A DNA stretch of 20,099 nucleotides from a virus: the IMG/VR virus record IMGVR_UViG_3300037338_000004, positions 1 to 20,099 of that record. One strand, written 5' to 3'. Positions within the stretch are counted from its first letter, which is position 1. Every line of letters begins with the position of its first letter. The notes beneath the pieces were generated by a model. That model had not been told where the DNA came from. It ran no database searches and was given only the letters and a program-made list of their open reading frames with translations. A program made the translations under genes and the position numbers. Below are positions 4,865 to 18,336 of this stretch, piece after piece.

Positions 4865-5635
4865 ATGTCGCAAGATAGTAAACTAGAACCAGCAGAGCTG
4901 AAAGGCGCTAATTTGTCAACGATAGAGCAACGCACTAACTCGATTGAGTTTGAGGTGCGCGAAGATAGTGACGGCATGACCTTCAGCGGTTACGCCGCTT
5001 TGTTTGATTCCCCTAGCGAGCCGCTTCCATTCATCGAGACTATTCAGCGTGGAGCGTTTCGCGGCTCTCTACGCTCTCGTCAAGACATCAAGTTTCTATG
5101 GAATCACGATGCCGGCGAAATACTAGGCAGCACTAGGGCCAAGACCCTCACTCTTATCGAAGATGAGCGCGGGCTAAAGGTAGAGGGCAGTTTGCCTAAC
5201 ACCTCACGCGGGCGCGATGTCGCTGAGCTTCTAAGGCGCGGAGACGTAGACGCTATGTCATTTGGCTTTAGTGTTCCATCAGGCGGAGACAAGTGGTCAA
5301 CTGACGGCAGCCAACGCACTCTCAAGAGTGTAAGACTCCACGAGGTCTCGCTAGTCTCTTGGCCCGCATACACCGCTACTGCTGGGACTGTATCGGTTCG
5401 CAAATACGAGAAGCTCGCAGAGCGTTCTAATGTAGACCCTGGAACTCTAGCCGAGGCTCTTACTAAGATTGAAGATGGACTTGACATCACGACTGATGAG
5501 AAGGAAATGCTCTCACGTGTAATCGGATCACTAGCTCCACAGCCCGAAGCTGTTTCAGAAGTCTTGCCGGTTTACGACTTGACCATGCTGGCACTAAAGA
5601 AAGCTAAGCTAGATTTACTAACGAAAGGCTACTAA
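4865..5635 (+). CDS. HK97-type prohead protease (peptidase U35)
   Basis: This 256-residue protein has the prohead serine protease core at about residues 27-175: GYAALFDS at 42-49, WNHDAGEILGS with the catalytic histidine H81, DAMSFGFSV with the catalytic serine S132, and LHEVSLVSWPAY with E160, likely the third active-site residue. In HK97-like phages the protease is incorporated into the prohead, then removes the N-terminal delta domain of the capsid protein and itself. The remaining C-terminal tail (about 176-256) is acidic and helical and could act as a scaffold-like or targeting segment. The gene starts at the base after the portal stop, with GAGG in the portal's last codons, and overlaps the next gene by one base (TAATG). 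Confidence 0.94.
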   Translation: MSQDSKLEPAELKGANLSTIEQRTNSIEFEVREDSDGMTFSGYAALFDSPSEPLPFIETIQRGAFRGSLRSRQDIKFLWNHDAGEILGSTRAKTLTLIEDERGLKVEGSLPNTSRGRDVAELLRRGDVDAMSFGFSVPSGGDKWSTDGSQRTLKSVRLHEVSLVSWPAYTATAGTVSVRKYEKLAERSNVDPGTLAEALTKIEDGLDITTDEKEMLSRVIGSLAPQPEAVSEVLPVYDLTMLALKKAKLDLLTKGY

Positions 5636-5817
5636 TGGCAACCAGAGACGAAATCAAAAACGCAATCCTAAAGGTCGCAGGTGACCCAGTATCGGGTGCA
5701 ATCAAAGACCTCGCAGAATCTATGGCTGATGCAGTTCATGCCATTGACAATCCACCTTCTTCGCAGAGGGTCGAAATAAAAGAGAACCGAGTAACCAAGC
5801 CGGCTGAAACTAGGTAA
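5635..5817 (+). CDS. Small protein of unknown function between protease and capsid genes
   Basis: This 60-residue frame opens MATRDEIKNAILKVAGDPVSG and is predicted helical and acidic in its first 38 residues (IKDLAESMADAVHAI), followed by a charged, proline-containing tail. The start overlaps the protease stop by one base and has AAAGG 8 bases upstream, so it is almost certainly translated with the protease. No domain is recognised. The position, immediately before the capsid gene, is where scaffolding or decoration genes are often found, so a minor assembly role is possible but unproved. The last 12 codons also form the left side of the nested RNA foldback described separately, a constraint that may act on codon choice here. 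Confidence 0.75.
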   Translation: MATRDEIKNAILKVAGDPVSGAIKDLAESMADAVHAIDNPPSSQRVEIKENRVTKPAETR

Positions 5818-5852
5818 CCCCTTTTACCTGAGCCGCCAAGCTTCGGTTCTCT
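5781..5852 (+). other. Nested three-stem RNA foldback at the end of the small gene
   Basis: Three inverted repeats are nested inside one another. AGAGAACCGA (5781-5790) pairs perfectly with TCGGTTCTCT (5843-5852), plus one G.U pair. GCCGGCT (5799-5805) pairs with AGCCGCC (5831-5837) at six of seven positions. AGGTAA (5812-5817), which contains the stop codon, pairs with TTACCT (5824-5829) around a 6-base loop. The outer stem ends at the base before the terminator stem. As RNA this would give a long interrupted hairpin stacked on the terminator. A role in 3' end protection, termination or RNA processing is inference. Confidence 0.5.
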
Positions 5853-5894
5853 CCCCGCTGGATCTTCCCCTTTCTGCCAGCGGGGTTTCTCTTT
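5853..5894 (+). terminator. Intrinsic terminator before the capsid gene
   Basis: CCCCGCTGG (5853-5861) and CCAGCGGGG (5877-5885) make a perfect 9-base-pair GC-rich stem with a 15-base loop, followed by TTTCTCTTT (5886-5894). It would end the packaging/portal/protease message, so the capsid gene needs its own promoter or read-through. Confidence 0.8.
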
Positions 5895-5915: not shown

Positions 5916-5937
5916 ATTGTTATAGAATTGTTATAAC
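5916..5937 (+). promoter_or_regulatory. AT-rich tandem repeat, promoter-like, upstream of capsid gene
   Basis: ATTGTTATA occurs twice, at 5916-5924 and 5927-5935, spaced 11 bases (about one helical turn), with a third partial copy, ATTGTGA, at 5941. Each full copy gives a -10-like hexamer (TATAGA at 5921, TATAAC at 5932). The -35 boxes are not clear. It lies between a terminator and the major capsid gene in an otherwise GC-richer setting, where a strong late promoter is expected, and could be a promoter, an operator or both. Confidence 0.4.
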
Positions 5938-6001
5938 GGAATTGTGAGTGTCCTCTGCCGTTGTTCGGGGTTGCGTGTTCCACCACCCAAATCTAATTCA
6001 A

Positions 6002-6016
6002 CTAACTAATAGGAGA
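6002..6016 (+). promoter_or_regulatory. Ribosome binding site of the capsid gene, shared with the tail-tube gene
   Basis: CTAACTAATAGGAGA ends 4 bases before the capsid ATG. The same 15 bases occur at 10511-10525, also 4 bases before the tail-tube ATG. AGGAG matches the 16S rRNA tail at good spacing; the identical upstream part goes beyond what the ribosome site alone requires. Confidence 0.75.
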
Positions 6017-6020
6017 CTAA

Positions 6021-7187
6021 ATGTCTGAGTTCATCATTGCTCAGTCTGAAGCCCGCAACAACCTCATCATGCAGGTTCGAGATGTTATCGAAACAGCAGA
6101 GACTGAGTCACGCGGGCTAGACCAGGCTGACACAAACAAAATCACCGCTATGGAAGCCGACATCGCAAAGCTAGACGAGTCAATCGCCTTTGCCAAGCGT
6201 AGCGAAGAGCGCAAGGTTGAGGCATCCGCTGCAGCTAAGGGATTTATCCCATCGGTATCAGCAGAGCGTTCAGCAACTGAGATCCTGCGGAACATTGCAG
6301 AAACACGCGGAGCACACACCTTTGAGCGCCGCACACTTGTCAGCACTGACAACACTGTCCCAAAGAGCTTCTACGATGAGGTATACGCAATCGCGCGTCT
6401 ATCTGGCCCGCTTCTAGAAACCTCTGAGGTTATCAACACAACCGAAGGCAACCAGCTCACCATCCCAACGTTGACCGCTTACAGCGTCGCAACCATCAAG
6501 GGTCAAGGCGCTGCGATAGATGCAAGTGACCCAACCTTTAGCTCAATCACTTTGGGTGCTTTCAAGTACTCATTCTTGATTCAGGCAGCCAACGAGCTAG
6601 TAACCGATGCCGGATTCGACCTAGGTTCTTACCTTGCAAACCAAGCTGGTCAGGCTATGGGCTTTGGGGTCAACGCTGGACTAACAACTGGAACTGGGAC
6701 TGTCGAGCCAACTGGTATCGTAACTGCTTCAGGTTCTGGAGTAACTGGTGGCACTGGCGTAGCTGGACTATTCACTACCGATCAGCTCATTGACCTTGCT
6801 TACTCAGTAGACGGCGCTGTCCGTAGACTGCCAGGCGCGGCTTACATGGCTAACAGCTCAACCGTAGGCAAAATCCGCAAGTTGAAAGACGGCGATGGAA
6901 CTTACCTGTACCAGATTGGTCAGACCGGCGCAGCAGGCGGAGACACATTCGCAGGCTTCAACGTGGTCGAGAACCCTCACATGGCAGACGTAGGCACTAA
7001 CGCTAAGTCGGTTTTGTTCGGTGACTTGAACAGCTACAAGGTAAGAATGGCTGGTGGCCTAGATGTTGCCTCGAGCCAGGAGTTCGCCTTTGGCAACGAC
7101 CTCACCACCTGGAGATTCCTGATGCGCGTCGACGGCAACTTGACACACGCCGCACACGTAAAGAGTTTCAAGGGCGCTGCTTCCTAG
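6021..7187 (+). CDS. Major capsid protein, HK97 fold
   Basis: This 388-residue protein is of normal length for the HK97 family. Residues 1 to about 70 are charged and helical (coiled-coil-like), as in a delta domain removed by the prohead protease; the cut probably falls between about 70 and 115. The rest matches the family: an N-arm and E-loop region around 113-175, the spine-helix region around 190-220 with AANELVTDAGFDLGSYLANQ, then GTVEPTGIV at 227-234 and the A-domain segment GDLNSYKVRMAGGLDV at 334-349. It forms the icosahedral shell. The gene stands alone between two terminators with an AT-rich promoter-like region and a strong ribosome site, consistent with very high expression. Confidence 0.95.
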   Translation: MSEFIIAQSEARNNLIMQVRDVIETAETESRGLDQADTNKITAMEADIAKLDESIAFAKRSEERKVEASAAAKGFIPSVSAERSATEILRNIAETRGAHTFERRTLVSTDNTVPKSFYDEVYAIARLSGPLLETSEVINTTEGNQLTIPTLTAYSVATIKGQGAAIDASDPTFSSITLGAFKYSFLIQAANELVTDAGFDLGSYLANQAGQAMGFGVNAGLTTGTGTVEPTGIVTASGSGVTGGTGVAGLFTTDQLIDLAYSVDGAVRRLPGAAYMANSSTVGKIRKLKDGDGTYLYQIGQTGAAGGDTFAGFNVVENPHMADVGTNAKSVLFGDLNSYKVRMAGGLDVASSQEFAFGNDLTTWRFLMRVDGNLTHAAHVKSFKGAAS

Positions 7188-7267: not shown

Positions 7268-8446
7268 ATGACCCATAACCTAAAGGGCGTAATCTCCCTA
7301 GCATCGAATACCCCAGGCATGCCAACAGGCTACGGCGTACAGGGCCGGCTGCTAATAGACAAGATGACCGAGGCAGGCTTATCAGTAGCCGCGCTATCCA
7401 ACTACGGCTTAGAGGGCGCTATGTCCTCTATCAAGACTAGACACGCAATCGTGCCTCACTACCCACGCGGAAACACTCTCTACTCAGGCGATGTCATAAA
7501 GCCATTTCACGAGCATCACCTGGCGGGGCGTGAGCTTCCTAACTTTGTCTTGACCCTCTACGATGTATGGGTTTATCTAGGCATGCCACTAGATGAAATT
7601 CAGATGGTATCTTGGACACCGCTAGACCATGAGACTATGCCGCCGAAGGTAGAGCAGTGGTCTCGGCAAAAGAATGTCACGCCTCTAGCCATGTCACCCT
7701 TTGGTCAAAAATCCTTTGAGGATAAAGGAATAGAAAGCTTTTACATTCCTCACGCTTTTAATAGCTCCTACAAGCCAACCCAGCTAATAGCTCAAACCCC
7801 AGTACGCGAATACATGGGGCTAAAGAATTCAGACTTCTTAGTTGGCATGGTGAGCGCAAACAAAGCAAACGGACAACTACACCGCAAGGCTTACGCCGAG
7901 AACCTTTTAGCCTTTGCAATGTTTCGAGCCAAGCACCCTGACGCTTATCTATACATTCACGCAGACCCGACAAAGATGTTTGGCGGCTTTGACCTTATAA
8001 ACCTGATGAAGCGGATGGGGATACCAGAAGACAGCGTGCTATTTCCCGAGCGTGATAAAATGCGCTTTGGGTATTCAGATCAAGAGATGGCTGCCCTTTA
8101 CACCGGCATGGATGTCTTACTGCACGTGAGCTACGGTGAGGGCTTTGGAGTCCCAGCAATTGAGGCGCAGGCTTGCGGCACTAGAGTAATCGGTTCATCC
8201 TGGGCAGCAACCCCTGATTTGCTATCAGATGATTCTTGGCTGGTTGAGGGCCAACCCTTTTGGGATGAAGCTCAGAACGCTTTTTTTAGAATCCCGCTAA
8301 TACCTTCAATCCTAAACTCGCTAGAGCTGTCCTATAAAGCAGACAGGGGAACAAGCTCAGCGTCAATTGAGTTTGCTAAGGAATTCCACATTGACAAGGT
8401 TTGGAATAACTACTGGTTGCCATTCCTAAAGGAGAAGCTTAAATGA
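7268..8446 (+). CDS. GT-B fold glycosyltransferase (GT4-like)
   Basis: This 392-residue protein resembles retaining GT-B glycosyltransferases. The N-terminal domain carries a loop GMPTGYGVQG (residues 17-26) and SWTPLDHE (115-122). The C-terminal donor domain carries VGMVSANKANGQLHRK (192-207), an alternating core, and the signature EGFGVPAIEA at 291-300 with the E-x7-E pair E291/E299, then CGTRVIGSS. The family transfers sugars from nucleotide donors to sugars, lipids or proteins. No signal peptide or membrane helix is seen, so it would act in the cytoplasm. It overlaps the next gene by four bases (ATGA). Placed between capsid and connector genes with a second transferase and a cytidylyltransferase, it may glycosylate virion proteins or a host glycan; which is not known. 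Confidence 0.88.
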   Translation: MTHNLKGVISLASNTPGMPTGYGVQGRLLIDKMTEAGLSVAALSNYGLEGAMSSIKTRHAIVPHYPRGNTLYSGDVIKPFHEHHLAGRELPNFVLTLYDVWVYLGMPLDEIQMVSWTPLDHETMPPKVEQWSRQKNVTPLAMSPFGQKSFEDKGIESFYIPHAFNSSYKPTQLIAQTPVREYMGLKNSDFLVGMVSANKANGQLHRKAYAENLLAFAMFRAKHPDAYLYIHADPTKMFGGFDLINLMKRMGIPEDSVLFPERDKMRFGYSDQEMAALYTGMDVLLHVSYGEGFGVPAIEAQACGTRVIGSSWAATPDLLSDDSWLVEGQPFWDEAQNAFFRIPLIPSILNSLELSYKADRGTSSASIEFAKEFHIDKVWNNYWLPFLKEKLK

Positions 8447-9090
8447 TTCCAGTGCTAGGGTTCGCCACACTATCCCGCTTTGATCTAGCGCAGAGACTGC
8501 TCGACTCGATAGATTACCCAGTCGAGCATCTAGTCATCGTAGACAATTCGGGGATTGACAAGTTCAGACCCCACATTCCTAGAACTGTGAAGAACATTTG
8601 GCTGCTTAGGATGCCTTTTGGTCTTGGGGCGAACGGTGCTTGGAATCTAATCATCAAGTCCACACCTCACGCGCCTTACTGGGTAATTCCAAATGATGAT
8701 GCTTATTTTGCACCTGGCGCTCTAAAAGCAATCGCTGAAGGCGTTCAGACGGACAAGTTCAACTTCGTTGATGTGATTCCCTCATGGTCGTGTGTAATCC
8801 CCACACAGGGCAGCGTAGGGCGTGCTGGGCTATGGGATGAATCTTTCCACCCAATTTACTTTGATGATGACGATTATCATTGGCGTATGAAAGAGCTAGG
8901 GGTTGAGTTTCATACTATTGACGCAAAGGTTTACCATGACAACTCATCAACTATCAAGAACGGTTATGAGCAAAGCAATGCTAGGACTTATCAAACCAAC
9001 GCTAAATTATTCCAGCACAAGCAGAACTTGAACATACTAAAAGAGCTTGGCTGGTCACTACAAGTAAGAAGGGAAAACAAATGGGACTGA
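8443..9090 (+). CDS. GT-A fold glycosyltransferase (GT2-like)
   Basis: This 215-residue protein has a compact GT-A core. The N-terminal nucleotide-binding strand-helix holds ATLSRFDLAQRLL and VIVDNSG (residues 31-37), NDDAYF at 84-89 supplies the DxD-like metal/donor site, and WDESFHPIYFDDDDYHWR at 131-148 has the family's acidic pair before a YxxR-type helix. H165 in KVYHDNSST is placed like the metal-binding histidine of related enzymes. It is predicted soluble. GGAG lies 10 bases before the ATG, inside the preceding gene, and the two genes overlap by four bases; the next gene starts 10 bases before its end. The tight overlaps show these three genes work as one unit. The donor and acceptor are unknown. 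Confidence 0.85.
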   Translation: MIPVLGFATLSRFDLAQRLLDSIDYPVEHLVIVDNSGIDKFRPHIPRTVKNIWLLRMPFGLGANGAWNLIIKSTPHAPYWVIPNDDAYFAPGALKAIAEGVQTDKFNFVDVIPSWSCVIPTQGSVGRAGLWDESFHPIYFDDDDYHWRMKELGVEFHTIDAKVYHDNSSTIKNGYEQSNARTYQTNAKLFQHKQNLNILKELGWSLQVRRENKWD

Positions 9091-9500
9091 TTTACACCGG
9101 AGGCACTTTTGATTTGTTCCACGCTAACCATGTCCGATTCCTCGCACGCTGCGCAGAGCTAGGGGATGTTGTCATATCGCTCAACACTGATGAGTTTATA
9201 ACAAAATACAAAGGCAAGCCGCCAATCATGACCTATGAGGAACGCAGGGTTGTCTTGAAAGCTTGTAAGTATGTCTCGGCTGTTGTTGAGAACTACGGCG
9301 GCGCGGATAGCAAGCTTGCAATTGAAGCGGTTTGGCCTGACATTATTGCTATCGGCTCAGACTGGGCGCGTAGGGATTATCACAAGCAGATGGGCTTTGA
9401 CCAAGACTGGCTAGATAACATGGACATCTCACTGATTTACATTCCTTACGGTGAGGGCGCAAGCTCCACAGAGATAAAGCGCAGGGTAAAGGTAGACTAG
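9081..9500 (+). CDS. TagD-like cytidylyltransferase
   Basis: This 139-residue protein has the length and motifs of glycerol-3-phosphate cytidylyltransferase-like enzymes: GGTFDLFHANH at 7-17 (nucleotide-binding GTFDxxHxGH, here with N16 instead of glycine), SLNTDEFITKYKGKPP at 33-48, YEERRVVLKACKYV at 52-65, IGSDWARRDY at 91-100 and GEGASSTEIKRR at 124-135 (the ISTTxI motif). Such enzymes join CTP to a phosphorylated alcohol, for example giving CDP-glycerol, the building block of teichoic-acid-type polymers. Other members activate different substrates, including nucleoside-diphosphate sugar precursors. Overlap with the upstream transferase suggests it makes an activated group for that pair or modifies the acceptor. 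Family sure, substrate unsure. Confidence 0.85.
   Translation: MGLIYTGGTFDLFHANHVRFLARCAELGDVVISLNTDEFITKYKGKPPIMTYEERRVVLKACKYVSAVVENYGGADSKLAIEAVWPDIIAIGSDWARRDYHKQMGFDQDWLDNMDISLIYIPYGEGASSTEIKRRVKVD
9493..9498 (+). promoter_or_regulatory. -10-like element before connector gene
   Basis: TAGACT (in TAGACTAG) lies exactly 6 bases before the ATG at 9505, the same spacing as at 7256 and 19157. It overlaps the stop of the cytidylyltransferase gene. AGGGGC directly before the ATG is too close to work well as a ribosome site. It could restart transcription of head-tail genes after the sugar cassette. Part of the motif is coding, so it may be chance. Confidence 0.3.
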
Positions 9501-16643: not shown

Positions 16644-17410
16644 TGTCTTGGAAACAATGGGCAATCGCCGAGGAAGTCAAGTTTGACGAATTTCAAAATC
16701 TGATTCAAGATCAGGTCATTCAGGTTTACGCAAACTCAACCGCTAGAGGTTCAGCACTAGGCACAGCAGTTACCGCTGGAATGTTTGCACACTTGCTAGA
16801 CACTAGCTCTACCGAGTATTACAACGGTACAGTCTGGGTAAGCGTTAGCAACCCTGGAGACATCACAGACGTAACCGCAGGGACTGCGCTAACAGGCGGA
16901 GGATCTAGCGGTGCAGTGACCTTGAATGTCAACCTAGCGGCTGTCACAATTCCTACCGCTCAGATTAGCGACTTGACTTCTACAGCGGCAGAGCTAAACA
17001 TCCTTGACGGTGTAACGGCTACGGCTGCCGAATTGAACTTTACCGATGGCGTGACCTCAGCAATCCAGACTCAGCTAGACGGCAAGCAACCCTTTACTCA
17101 GCCGGTCTTTACAAAGACAGCCGCTTATACCGCAGTAGCAGGTGACGCTAATGACCTTCTGTATTTTACGAACTCAACGGCAGTGACACTAACCATTCCC
17201 GACCTGATTGCAATTGGTGACCGCATAGACATTATCCGAGACGGCGCGGGGACTGTGACTATCGCCGCAGGGACAGGCGTGACATCTTGGGCCGGTGCAG
17301 GGACAGCAGGAACAGCGGTCACTTTCAAAATGGATCAACAGCACAACGGCGCAACGGTTTACAAAGTAGCGGCTAACACTTACCGAGTAATTGGAAAGGT
17401 AATCCCATAA
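16643..17410 (+). CDS. Tail fibre protein, second paralogue with TAAELN repeats
   Basis: The GTG at 16643, overlapping the upstream stop, gives 255 residues starting MSWKQWAIAEEVKFDEFQNL, which aligns with the start of the preceding protein; an earlier ATG at 16592 lies inside that gene and adds unrelated residues. Residues 1-68 (YNGTVWVSV at 60-68) and 173-255 (FTNSTAVTLTIP, IRDGAGTVTIAAGTGV, NTYRVIGKV) are the shared parts. The insert between them holds a short tandem repeat, STAAELNILDGVT and ATAAELNFTDGVT (113-138), a motif widespread in fibre shafts of environmental phages. It is probably a trimeric fibre. It overlaps the adhesin gene start by one base (TAATG). Confidence 0.75.
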   Translation: MSWKQWAIAEEVKFDEFQNLIQDQVIQVYANSTARGSALGTAVTAGMFAHLLDTSSTEYYNGTVWVSVSNPGDITDVTAGTALTGGGSSGAVTLNVNLAAVTIPTAQISDLTSTAAELNILDGVTATAAELNFTDGVTSAIQTQLDGKQPFTQPVFTKTAAYTAVAGDANDLLYFTNSTAVTLTIPDLIAIGDRIDIIRDGAGTVTIAAGTGVTSWAGAGTAGTAVTFKMDQQHNGATVYKVAANTYRVIGKVIP

Positions 17411-18336
17411 TGCCAATCCCTCTAGGCATACTTGCGGCGGCTGGCTTTGCACCAGCGGCGCTAGGCGTTGCTGGTTACTTTGGCGGAGGTAATGCTACCA
17501 CTATAGATAAATTTGCTTTTCCTAGTGACTCAAGAAGTACTTTAGGCACAGGACTCTCGATTCAAGGTAGGCCTCAAGGCTTTTCTAATTCTGGTGTAGC
17601 AGGTTATTTCAGTATTGGGTTCAACGGTTCTACCCGAGTGTCAACTGTCAACAAAGTTACATTTCCTGGGGACTCTGTAACGACTCTTGGCACAGGGCTA
17701 TCTTCAAACAAAAATGACATGGGCGCTTTCGCTAACTCTGGTGTAGCTGGGTATTTCGGGGGCGGTGGATTTGGCATCACTGCAACAGTCGATAAGTTCG
17801 CTTTCCCAGGTGACTCGAGAAGCACTTTAGGCACAGGACTATCCCAAGCCAGAAGAGGACTTGGTGGGTTTTCTAATTTTGGGGTAGCCGGTTATTTTGC
17901 CGGAGGTCAGAATGACCCAACTCAGTATTCCACAGTAGATAAGTTTGCCTTCCCAGGTGACTCAAGAAGCACTTTAGGAACTGGGCTATCTGCCAGTACT
18001 TCCTTTTTAGCTGCTTTTGACAATCAGGCAGTAGCAGGTTACACACTTGGAGGTTTTTCGTCTGGAAGCCGAGTTGCAACAGTAAATAAATTCGCCTTTG
18101 CTAGTGACTCAAGAAGTACTTTAGGCACAGGGCTTTCTGCCACAACCGGCGACAACGCTGGAACATCTAATTATTTGGTCGCTGGGTATGTCGGCGGAGG
18201 TCGCATTGACGAATCTACAATTGTCTCTACAATAGACAAGTTTGCATTTCCTAGCGACTCAAGATCGACACTAGGCACAGGGCTTAGTTCAGCCAGACAT
18301 GAACTCGGCGCAATGTCGAATTGTGGAGTTCTTTAG
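17410..18336 (+). CDS. Six-repeat kelch-like beta-propeller adhesin
   Basis: After a short hydrophobic start (MPIPLGILAAAGFAPAALG), this 308-residue protein is almost wholly six repeats of 43-50 residues at 19-61, 62-110, 111-157, 158-206, 207-255 and 256-305. Each follows GVAGYFGGG, a variable loop, then STVDKFAFPSDSRSTLGT, GLS, a second variable loop and a closing FSNS-like turn. GGG followed by spaced aromatics and a GYF strand resembles kelch repeats, so a six-bladed beta-propeller is the likely fold. The last three residues (GVL) repeat the start of a blade and may close the ring. Repeats differ mainly in the two loops, which would face one side. As the last structural gene of the tail, it is a good candidate for host receptor binding. 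Confidence 0.75.
   Translation: MPIPLGILAAAGFAPAALGVAGYFGGGNATTIDKFAFPSDSRSTLGTGLSIQGRPQGFSNSGVAGYFSIGFNGSTRVSTVNKVTFPGDSVTTLGTGLSSNKNDMGAFANSGVAGYFGGGGFGITATVDKFAFPGDSRSTLGTGLSQARRGLGGFSNFGVAGYFAGGQNDPTQYSTVDKFAFPGDSRSTLGTGLSASTSFLAAFDNQAVAGYTLGGFSSGSRVATVNKFAFASDSRSTLGTGLSATTGDNAGTSNYLVAGYVGGGRIDESTIVSTIDKFAFPSDSRSTLGTGLSSARHELGAMSNCGVL
17464..18324 (+). repeat. Six in-frame DNA repeats of about 130-150 bases encoding propeller blades
   Basis: The repeats are evident in DNA as well as protein: the core GACTCAAGAAGTACTTTAGG is found exactly or with few changes in four of the blades (near 17527, 17815, 17958 and 18105), and a more diverged copy is near 18259; blade two (near 17670) is the most different. 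Repeats of this length can recombine, so copy number could vary between relatives. Confidence 0.8.

Follow-up and report, generated by a model that had tools for sequence, protein, structure and literature searches.

A covarying RNA helix in a phage genome joins the last codons of a small gene to nucleotides immediately preceding a GC-rich hairpin, and the fold to which it belongs is an RNA structure kept by selection. The element lies at the 3' end of a 60-residue ORF, directly ahead of the capsid gene, in a virus record of 20,099 bases (IMG/VR record IMGVR_UViG_3300037338_000004, which was analyzed over its full length and is referred to here as the window). We consider it about an even prospect that the element acts on the packaging message as a composite terminator and also caps its 3' end. 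The element is dual-coding and a conserved structured RNA at a 3' end, and the available text of PMC2864571 describes the control of genes through structured 3'-UTR domains as highly unusual in bacteria. It appears to mark the border at which the packaging transcript gives way to the capsid transcript, a point where much more of one product than of the other is required, and it could show directly whether termination or message life changes when RNA is stacked under a terminator.

Results

A small ORF separates the prohead protease and capsid genes

The window contains terminase, portal, S78 prohead protease, 60-residue ORF, HK97-type capsid and tail genes. The prohead protease gene (4865-5635, on the + strand, as are all window features given coordinates in the description of the element and its neighbors) was assigned from its ORF call and family matches, and the small ORF (60 aa, 5635-5817) between it and the capsid gene from its ORF call, its relatives and a protein alignment. 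The HK97-type major capsid gene (6021-7187; ORF call and family matches) is preceded by the Shine-Dalgarno sequence AGGAGA (6011-6016). The small ORF had no match in Pfam or PHROG, and its AlphaFold2 model (pLDDT 74), which shows a pair of helices and a loose tail, had no informative fold match in the PDB.

Searches with the capsid and the small ORF returned 9 and 30 viral loci, respectively, and a capsid alignment search contributed 80 viral loci (80 kept of 575) and 80 genome loci (80 kept of 565). A relative of the small ORF is present in 109 of the 122 viral loci examined, a set that includes the window, its copy L001, phiPsal1 (L041) and a contig that is represented more than once (e.g., L002, L011 and L042). 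Only two of the 80 genome loci carry one, the first in a MAG of uncultured Microbacteriaceae and the second in a MAG from a pond, and phiPsal1 is the sole phage record in INPHARED found with such a relative. According to the available text of PMC6106888, phiPsal1 was sequenced together with Pontimonas salivibrio, a coastal marine member of the Microbacteriaceae. The MAG carriers and the origin of phiPsal1 suggest that the hosts of these phages are probably aquatic Microbacteriaceae or their kin. Phages carrying the element are known almost exclusively from metagenomes, and covariance models of the element and of the twin leader hairpins described below could help find more of them.

The end of the small ORF folds with the terminator region

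The 5' half of the RNA structure consists of the final 13 codons of the small ORF, to which both the 5' arm and the stop codon belong; this agrees with the first-pass annotation of the window, which had described a nested three-stem foldback that overlaps coding sequence and is stacked on a terminator. The outer stem is present with the 10 perfect pairs described there, and it joins a 5' arm at 5781-5790 (K-E-N-R codons), which covaries in relatives, to an untranslated 3' arm at 5843-5852 that adjoins the terminator. The middle stem, listed as 6 of 7 pairs, had to be revised: five pairs are predicted (5801-5805 with 5831-5835, pair probability 0.73-0.97), plus a weaker AAG/CTT alternative, and both arms of this inner helix are supported by covariation as well as by pairing prediction. 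The innermost stem does contain the stop codon, as claimed, and is predicted to have seven pairs rather than six (5811-5817 with 5824-5830), which gives a predicted hairpin at 5811-5830 with the UAA (5815-5817) in its 5' arm. The internal loop has a 5' strand, GUAACCAAGC (5791-5800, codons V-T-K-P), marked by invariant columns and synonymous constraint, and an untranslated 3' strand, GCCAAGC (5835-5841), also in invariant columns. Downstream, the terminator hairpin (5853-5885) has the nine perfect pairs initially reported (5853-5861 with 5877-5885), zero unpaired bases between it and the outer stem, and a 15-nt C/U-rich loop. This GC-rich hairpin, whose columns covary in relatives, and the U-rich tail UUUCUCUUU (5886-5894) have the sequence features of an intrinsic terminator. 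The tail could alternatively pair with 5779-5786, and the outer helix and terminator coexist in the predicted fold.

Folding energy sets the region apart from shuffled sequence. The stretch 5781-5894 was predicted to fold at -46.2 kcal/mol compared with -29.8 +/- 3.5 kcal/mol for shuffles (z -4.75; 0 of 200 shuffles as stable), and 5781-5852 alone gave a z of -4.55. Among 526 sliding 114-nt segments, 5777-5890 ranked first both by z (-6.81) and by energy. The initial assertion that such nesting is improbable by chance therefore holds for the whole fold, the best of those 526 segments, and fails for the outer stem taken alone, as perfect 10-bp inverted repeats with a spacer of at most 60 occur once in the window versus a mean of 1.15 in 20 shuffles. 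Because a lone 10-bp inverted repeat is unremarkable, relatives were needed as a test, and the case for the element rests on the whole fold and its covariation rather than on any single repeat.

The helices covary in relatives

In relatives, compensatory changes exceed controls in both the outer and the inner helices. Most of the 92 unique regions place the K-E-x-R codons opposite a stretch that runs up to the terminator, with outer-arm pairs such as GAAACCCG/CGGGTTTC, GAGACTCG/CGAGTCTC, GAAGTCCG/CGGACTTC, GAAACGC/GCGTTTC and GAATCT/AGATTC. Across 64 distinct regions, the outer helix formed from a region's own arms averaged -10.5 kcal/mol compared with -6.1 kcal/mol for swapped arms, and the own partner was better for 14 of the 17 outer arm types; two of the three exceptions come from the L049/L053 group and one from L039. 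The inner helix behaved similarly (-6.8 versus -4.4 kcal/mol; n = 37, regions with CCAAG ahead of the terminator), and its variants include CGACT/AGTCG, CAGAG/CTCTG, CAGCC/GGCTG, CAGTT/AACTG and CAGCG/CGCTG. Two other forms of the swap test were less useful. When the K-E-x-R arm was free to search 60 downstream bases, the result was weak (own 8.8 versus swapped 7.8, with 95% of swaps outdone in only 5 of 78) because the arms are mostly alike and short matches are abundant. An ungapped 8-mer version (at least 7 of 8 paired in 55% versus 15%) was spoilt by register shifts, and the energy version was adopted instead.

A MAFFT alignment of 35 regions was drawn from 44 distinct regions with CCAAG or CCAAA ahead of the terminator; those dropped were L068, L069, L076, L080, L083, L088, L097, L101 and L104, the last five of which (L083, L088, L097, L101 and L104) are rows of another alignment (A5). 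In the 35 regions, the nine outer and five inner pairs were 86.6% paired, compared with 71.5% in shuffles and at most 46.6% in slides, and double-changed cells numbered 82, compared with 26 in shuffles and at most 25 in slides. Two of the five covariation measures were not above shuffles (pairs with a double change, 123 of 500; further pair types, 107 of 500). RNAalifold, unaided, recovered the outer helix, the inner helix and the terminator, with double changes in 14 of 17 pairs. When pair types were traced on the capsid tree, 5 to 10 changes were counted at each of eight variable pairs. Columns 12-88 (at least 10 changes, 33 of 33 paired), 10-90 (at least 8, 29 of 34), 27-72 (at least 10, 34 of 35) and 28-71 (at least 8, 35 of 35) show this pattern, and columns 13-87 are paired in just 18 of 33. 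A second set of 33 loci, which shares no rows with the first alignment but includes L005 and L101, close to its rows L003 and L103, was 89.6% paired with double changes in 20 of 23 pairs in an alignment fitted to the structure. Taken together, the sliding-window folding, the alignment pair counts and the pair changes on the capsid tree rule out a chance origin of the fold. The first-pass annotation had named folding no better than shuffled controls, together with a lack of covariation, as grounds for refutation, and the structure came through on both counts.

A covariance model placed the element at the border of the small ORF and the capsid gene in 35 of 53 sources, window included, at E values of at most 2.2e-4; matches elsewhere had E values of 0.014 or worse. 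The model also matched four sites in the Microbacteriaceae MAG (2.3 Mb) and one in the pond MAG (0.8 Mb). We rejected the idea of a host element, since four of these five matches were fetched as loci and all have the small ORF and capsid; the fifth (G001:C7) matches the L122 site by its coordinates. A comparison of G-U with A-C cells was not decisive as a strand indicator: G-U was not the commoner across all 14 pairs (20 versus 29) and outnumbered A-C in the eight core pairs (columns 7-12, 27 and 28; 16 versus 6). The + strand was instead assigned from the U-tract and the gene direction.

The hairpins and loops inside the outer helix differ in how far they are conserved. The innermost hairpin is confined to relatives with a longer loop, and a hairpin with the stop codon in its arm is predicted in five of seven long-loop rows and likewise in the window. 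The internal loop is near-invariant on both strands across the 35 rows. On its coding strand, synonymous codons are frozen among 72 dereplicated genes (ACC for 38 of 45 Thr and AAG for 51 of 52 Lys), with a synonymous constraint ratio of 2.13 at the T codon and 1.87 at the K codon and near 1.0-1.5 at most others. A pure stability role leaves the constancy of this frozen GUAACCAAGC/GCCAAGC loop unexplained, which suggests a further contact. One candidate is recognition of the loop by a protein (the charged-tail small protein, the capsid or a host factor) or, in the manner of HK022 put, by RNA polymerase, such that binding would set termination or translation. The near-invariance of the loop and its frozen synonymous sites do exceed what helix formation needs; however, the loop sequence is replaced in other subgroups that keep the helices (e.g., the ITKA group and L007), and the small protein offers no informative fold match. 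As described in the available text of PMC9378689, put is a phage RNA of about 70 nt with two stem-loops, and thus comparable in size and form, but it lies in early transcripts and suppresses termination. The present element instead ends a run of head genes (after terminase, portal and protease) and carries a terminator, the opposite of put, and we judge a role as such a binding site decidedly unlikely.

The outer helix abuts a short terminator

In 67 of 78 regions, a gap of 0-1 nt separates the 3' arm of the outer helix from the terminator, and the distance from the stop codon to the terminator varies from 8 to 46 nt (8-29 nt in 65 of 78); these counts omit L021, L030 and L110 (terminator mis-set), L039, L049, L050, L051, L053, L054 and L055. 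Terminator stems at the element averaged 10.0 bp (n = 63) compared with 14.3 bp for post-capsid terminators of the same phages (n = 56), taking each terminator as independent and ignoring relatedness. Pairing upstream of the terminator had a mean z of -1.39 at 69 focal sites versus -0.17 at 98 other terminators. An extra upstream helix as a general terminator trait was rejected, as those other 98 terminators show none beyond chance. The element thus resembles an intrinsic (Rho-independent) terminator in that a gene cluster closes with a GC-rich hairpin and, after it, a U-rich tail. It differs from one in the second, half-coding covarying helix that adjoins the hairpin, which is absent from the other terminators of the same phages.

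Several lineages depart from this arrangement. L039 has lost the helix and has a terminator stem of 14 bp; L049/L053 and their relatives have also lost it, yet their stem is just 9 bp, which does not fit the idea that the helix extends a short stem. In the phiPsal1 lineage (L041, L105, L108 and L121), neither helix nor terminator was found directly after the small ORF. In L021 and L030, a tmRNA-like gene starts in place of the U-tract and the helix and hairpin are nevertheless retained, which suggests that the fold is useful for a processed 3' end too.

The tail can pair with the start of the 5' arm over at least 7 bp in 22 of 62 regions versus 8.7 by permutation (P 5e-4), and the energy of the tail with its own arm beats the mean swap in 40 of 62, a modest effect; both tests omit L021, L030 and L110. 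In the window, competition between the tail and the outer helix is confined to a short context; in a longer one, the tail pairs elsewhere. Terminators with A-tract/U-tract pairing, as covered in the available text of PMC4824070, similarly have an A-rich stretch that can pair with the tail; in the present element, that stretch is found not immediately ahead of the hairpin but about 70 nt upstream, where the outer helix begins. This pairing is also what a mechanism like that of lambda sib would require. The sib retroregulator is a terminator-linked phage RNA structure that acts on an upstream gene through RNase III, and the present structure, likewise linked to a terminator, could act on the gene upstream of it. 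Under such a mechanism, only read-through RNA would complete a longer duplex across the terminator, and RNase III would then cut the duplex and expose the upstream message to decay. The excess of tail pairing over permutation is in its favor, but the candidate duplex would be 7-9 bp, which is short for RNase III, and the pairing is missing in many relatives rather than universal, and so we regard retroregulation as very unlikely.

The first-pass annotation had also proposed a processed small RNA, an idea that found no support. In this case the C/U-rich terminator loop would pair in trans with other messages. The terminator loops of relatives, which correspond to 5862-5876 in the window, are often C/U-rich with CCCCUUUC, and such loops resemble the 16S rRNA 3' end or C-rich small-RNA motifs. 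A search of the window against Rfam 15 returned 0 matches above the gathering threshold; the best, to the Listeria LhrC family (RF00616), is a sub-threshold similarity of 23.7 bits where 110 are needed. In addition, a promoter scan (weak) lists no promoter-like site in front of the element, its 5' half is coding, and the terminator loop differs between subgroups. A trans-acting small RNA is therefore highly improbable.

A conserved leader precedes the capsid gene

Downstream of the terminator, aligned leaders identify a -10-like box, TAGAAT (5923-5928), which we presume to belong to a capsid promoter. Its form TANANT is invariant in 37 of 37 aligned leaders (37 of 42 leaders; L041, L056, L064, L098 and L113 were left out). 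At the presumed start of the capsid message, the leaders of relatives contain two small, widely conserved hairpins, mostly with UNAG loops and with covarying GNG/CNC stems, and an AGGAGA-like site ahead of the capsid start codon. The leader alignment places the corresponding window hairpins at 5937-5960 (CGG...GAG-UGUC-CUC-U-GCCG) and at about 5966-5988; both are degenerate, the first having a UGUC loop and the second being irregular. A dyad at 5919-5937 (GTTATA...TATAAC), nearly the same in L002, spans the -10-like box and could be an operator. In relatives with a gap of at least 350 nt, additional sequence that often contains ORFs separates the terminator from the -10-like box. Because inserts fall between them, the terminator half and the leader half behave as separate modules.

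Control of read-through into the capsid gene, another role put forward in the first-pass annotation, could work through ribosomes. A ribosome at the end of the small gene would melt the outer and inner helices and block the terminator so that the capsid gene is read, and lagging ribosomes would allow the fold to form and transcription to stop. The 5' arm and the stop codon lie within the fold, as this would demand, and the 65 of 78 stop-to-terminator distances of 8-29 nt can be set beside an E. coli system in which, in the available text of PMC4824070, ribosomes repress terminators within about 27 nt of the stop codon. However, that distance varies over the full 8-46 nt while it is the contact between fold and terminator that is kept, the helix shares no bases with the terminator arms and is therefore no classical antiterminator, and the capsid gene has a -10-like box ahead of it. 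We consider ribosome gating rather unlikely.

Discussion

Because the contact with the terminator is fixed, the terminator stem short and the capsid leader separate, we infer that the element ends and caps the packaging message. Stabilization of the 3' end of that message, one of the roles suggested at the outset, would accordingly be the best-supported reading, favored by the fixed contact and the short stem. RNA polymerase would terminate at the U-rich tail, the outer helix would both extend an unusually short terminator stem and remove competing upstream RNA, and two stacked helices at the message end would favor release and slow 3' exonucleases. In some relatives, the tail may also hide the 3' end by pairing with the A/G-rich bases at which the 5' arm begins. 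The site would then form the boundary of two transcripts, with the -10-like box and twin-hairpin leader giving the capsid gene its own transcription. Strong terminators raise upstream mRNA levels in the available text of PMC11696848.

A broader proposal is that the element represents a new class of phage RNA acting in cis. The last codons of a gene would also make up half of a recognized RNA domain, with its frozen internal loop set between two covarying helices and a terminator joined to it, and a bound protein or the state of the ribosome would switch between ending the packaging message and reading through into the capsid gene; we hold this to be improbable, although not negligibly so. In the literature searched, which covered part of the field, we found no description of the element. 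The L17 downstream element (RF01708) is, in the available text of PMC2864571, likewise conserved and structured and sits at a bacterial gene's 3' end, and the present element differs in lying in a phage, overlapping a coding region and being joined to a terminator. No match to RF01708 was found, and the upstream gene here is a small phage ORF after the prohead protease.

Other features of these genomes were observed in passing. A variable insert separates the terminator from the capsid leader in L005, L023, L039, L045, L047, L074, L075, L096 and L119, where the gap is 0.75-1.2 kb, and its ORFs are small and mostly without a Pfam match, one being a GNAT acetyltransferase (L005). Between the small ORF and the capsid, four loci carry RNAs of 82-83 nt that match tmRNA (RF00023, 54.6-65.1 bits, model ends 1-374): L021:1884-1966, L030:726-808, L041:2307-2388 (phiPsal1) and L105:915-996. 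Their acceptor stem contains, as judged by eye, a G3-U70 wobble, and a T arm and a short P2-like hairpin are also present. These RNAs leave no room for the mRNA-like and pseudoknot part and are possibly a phage decoy of trans-translation; ARAGORN found nothing in L021, L030 and L041. In the head gene cluster 3' of the window's capsid gene (7268-9500) are two ORFs that we take to be glycosyltransferase-like and one that we take to be nucleotidyltransferase-like, judging by the translations, and phiPsal1 too has a glycosyltransferase after its capsid gene. Among the presumed tail genes of the window, a 308-aa ORF (17410-18336) contains several near-identical repeats (VAGYFGGG...TVDKFAFPGDSRSTLGTGLS).
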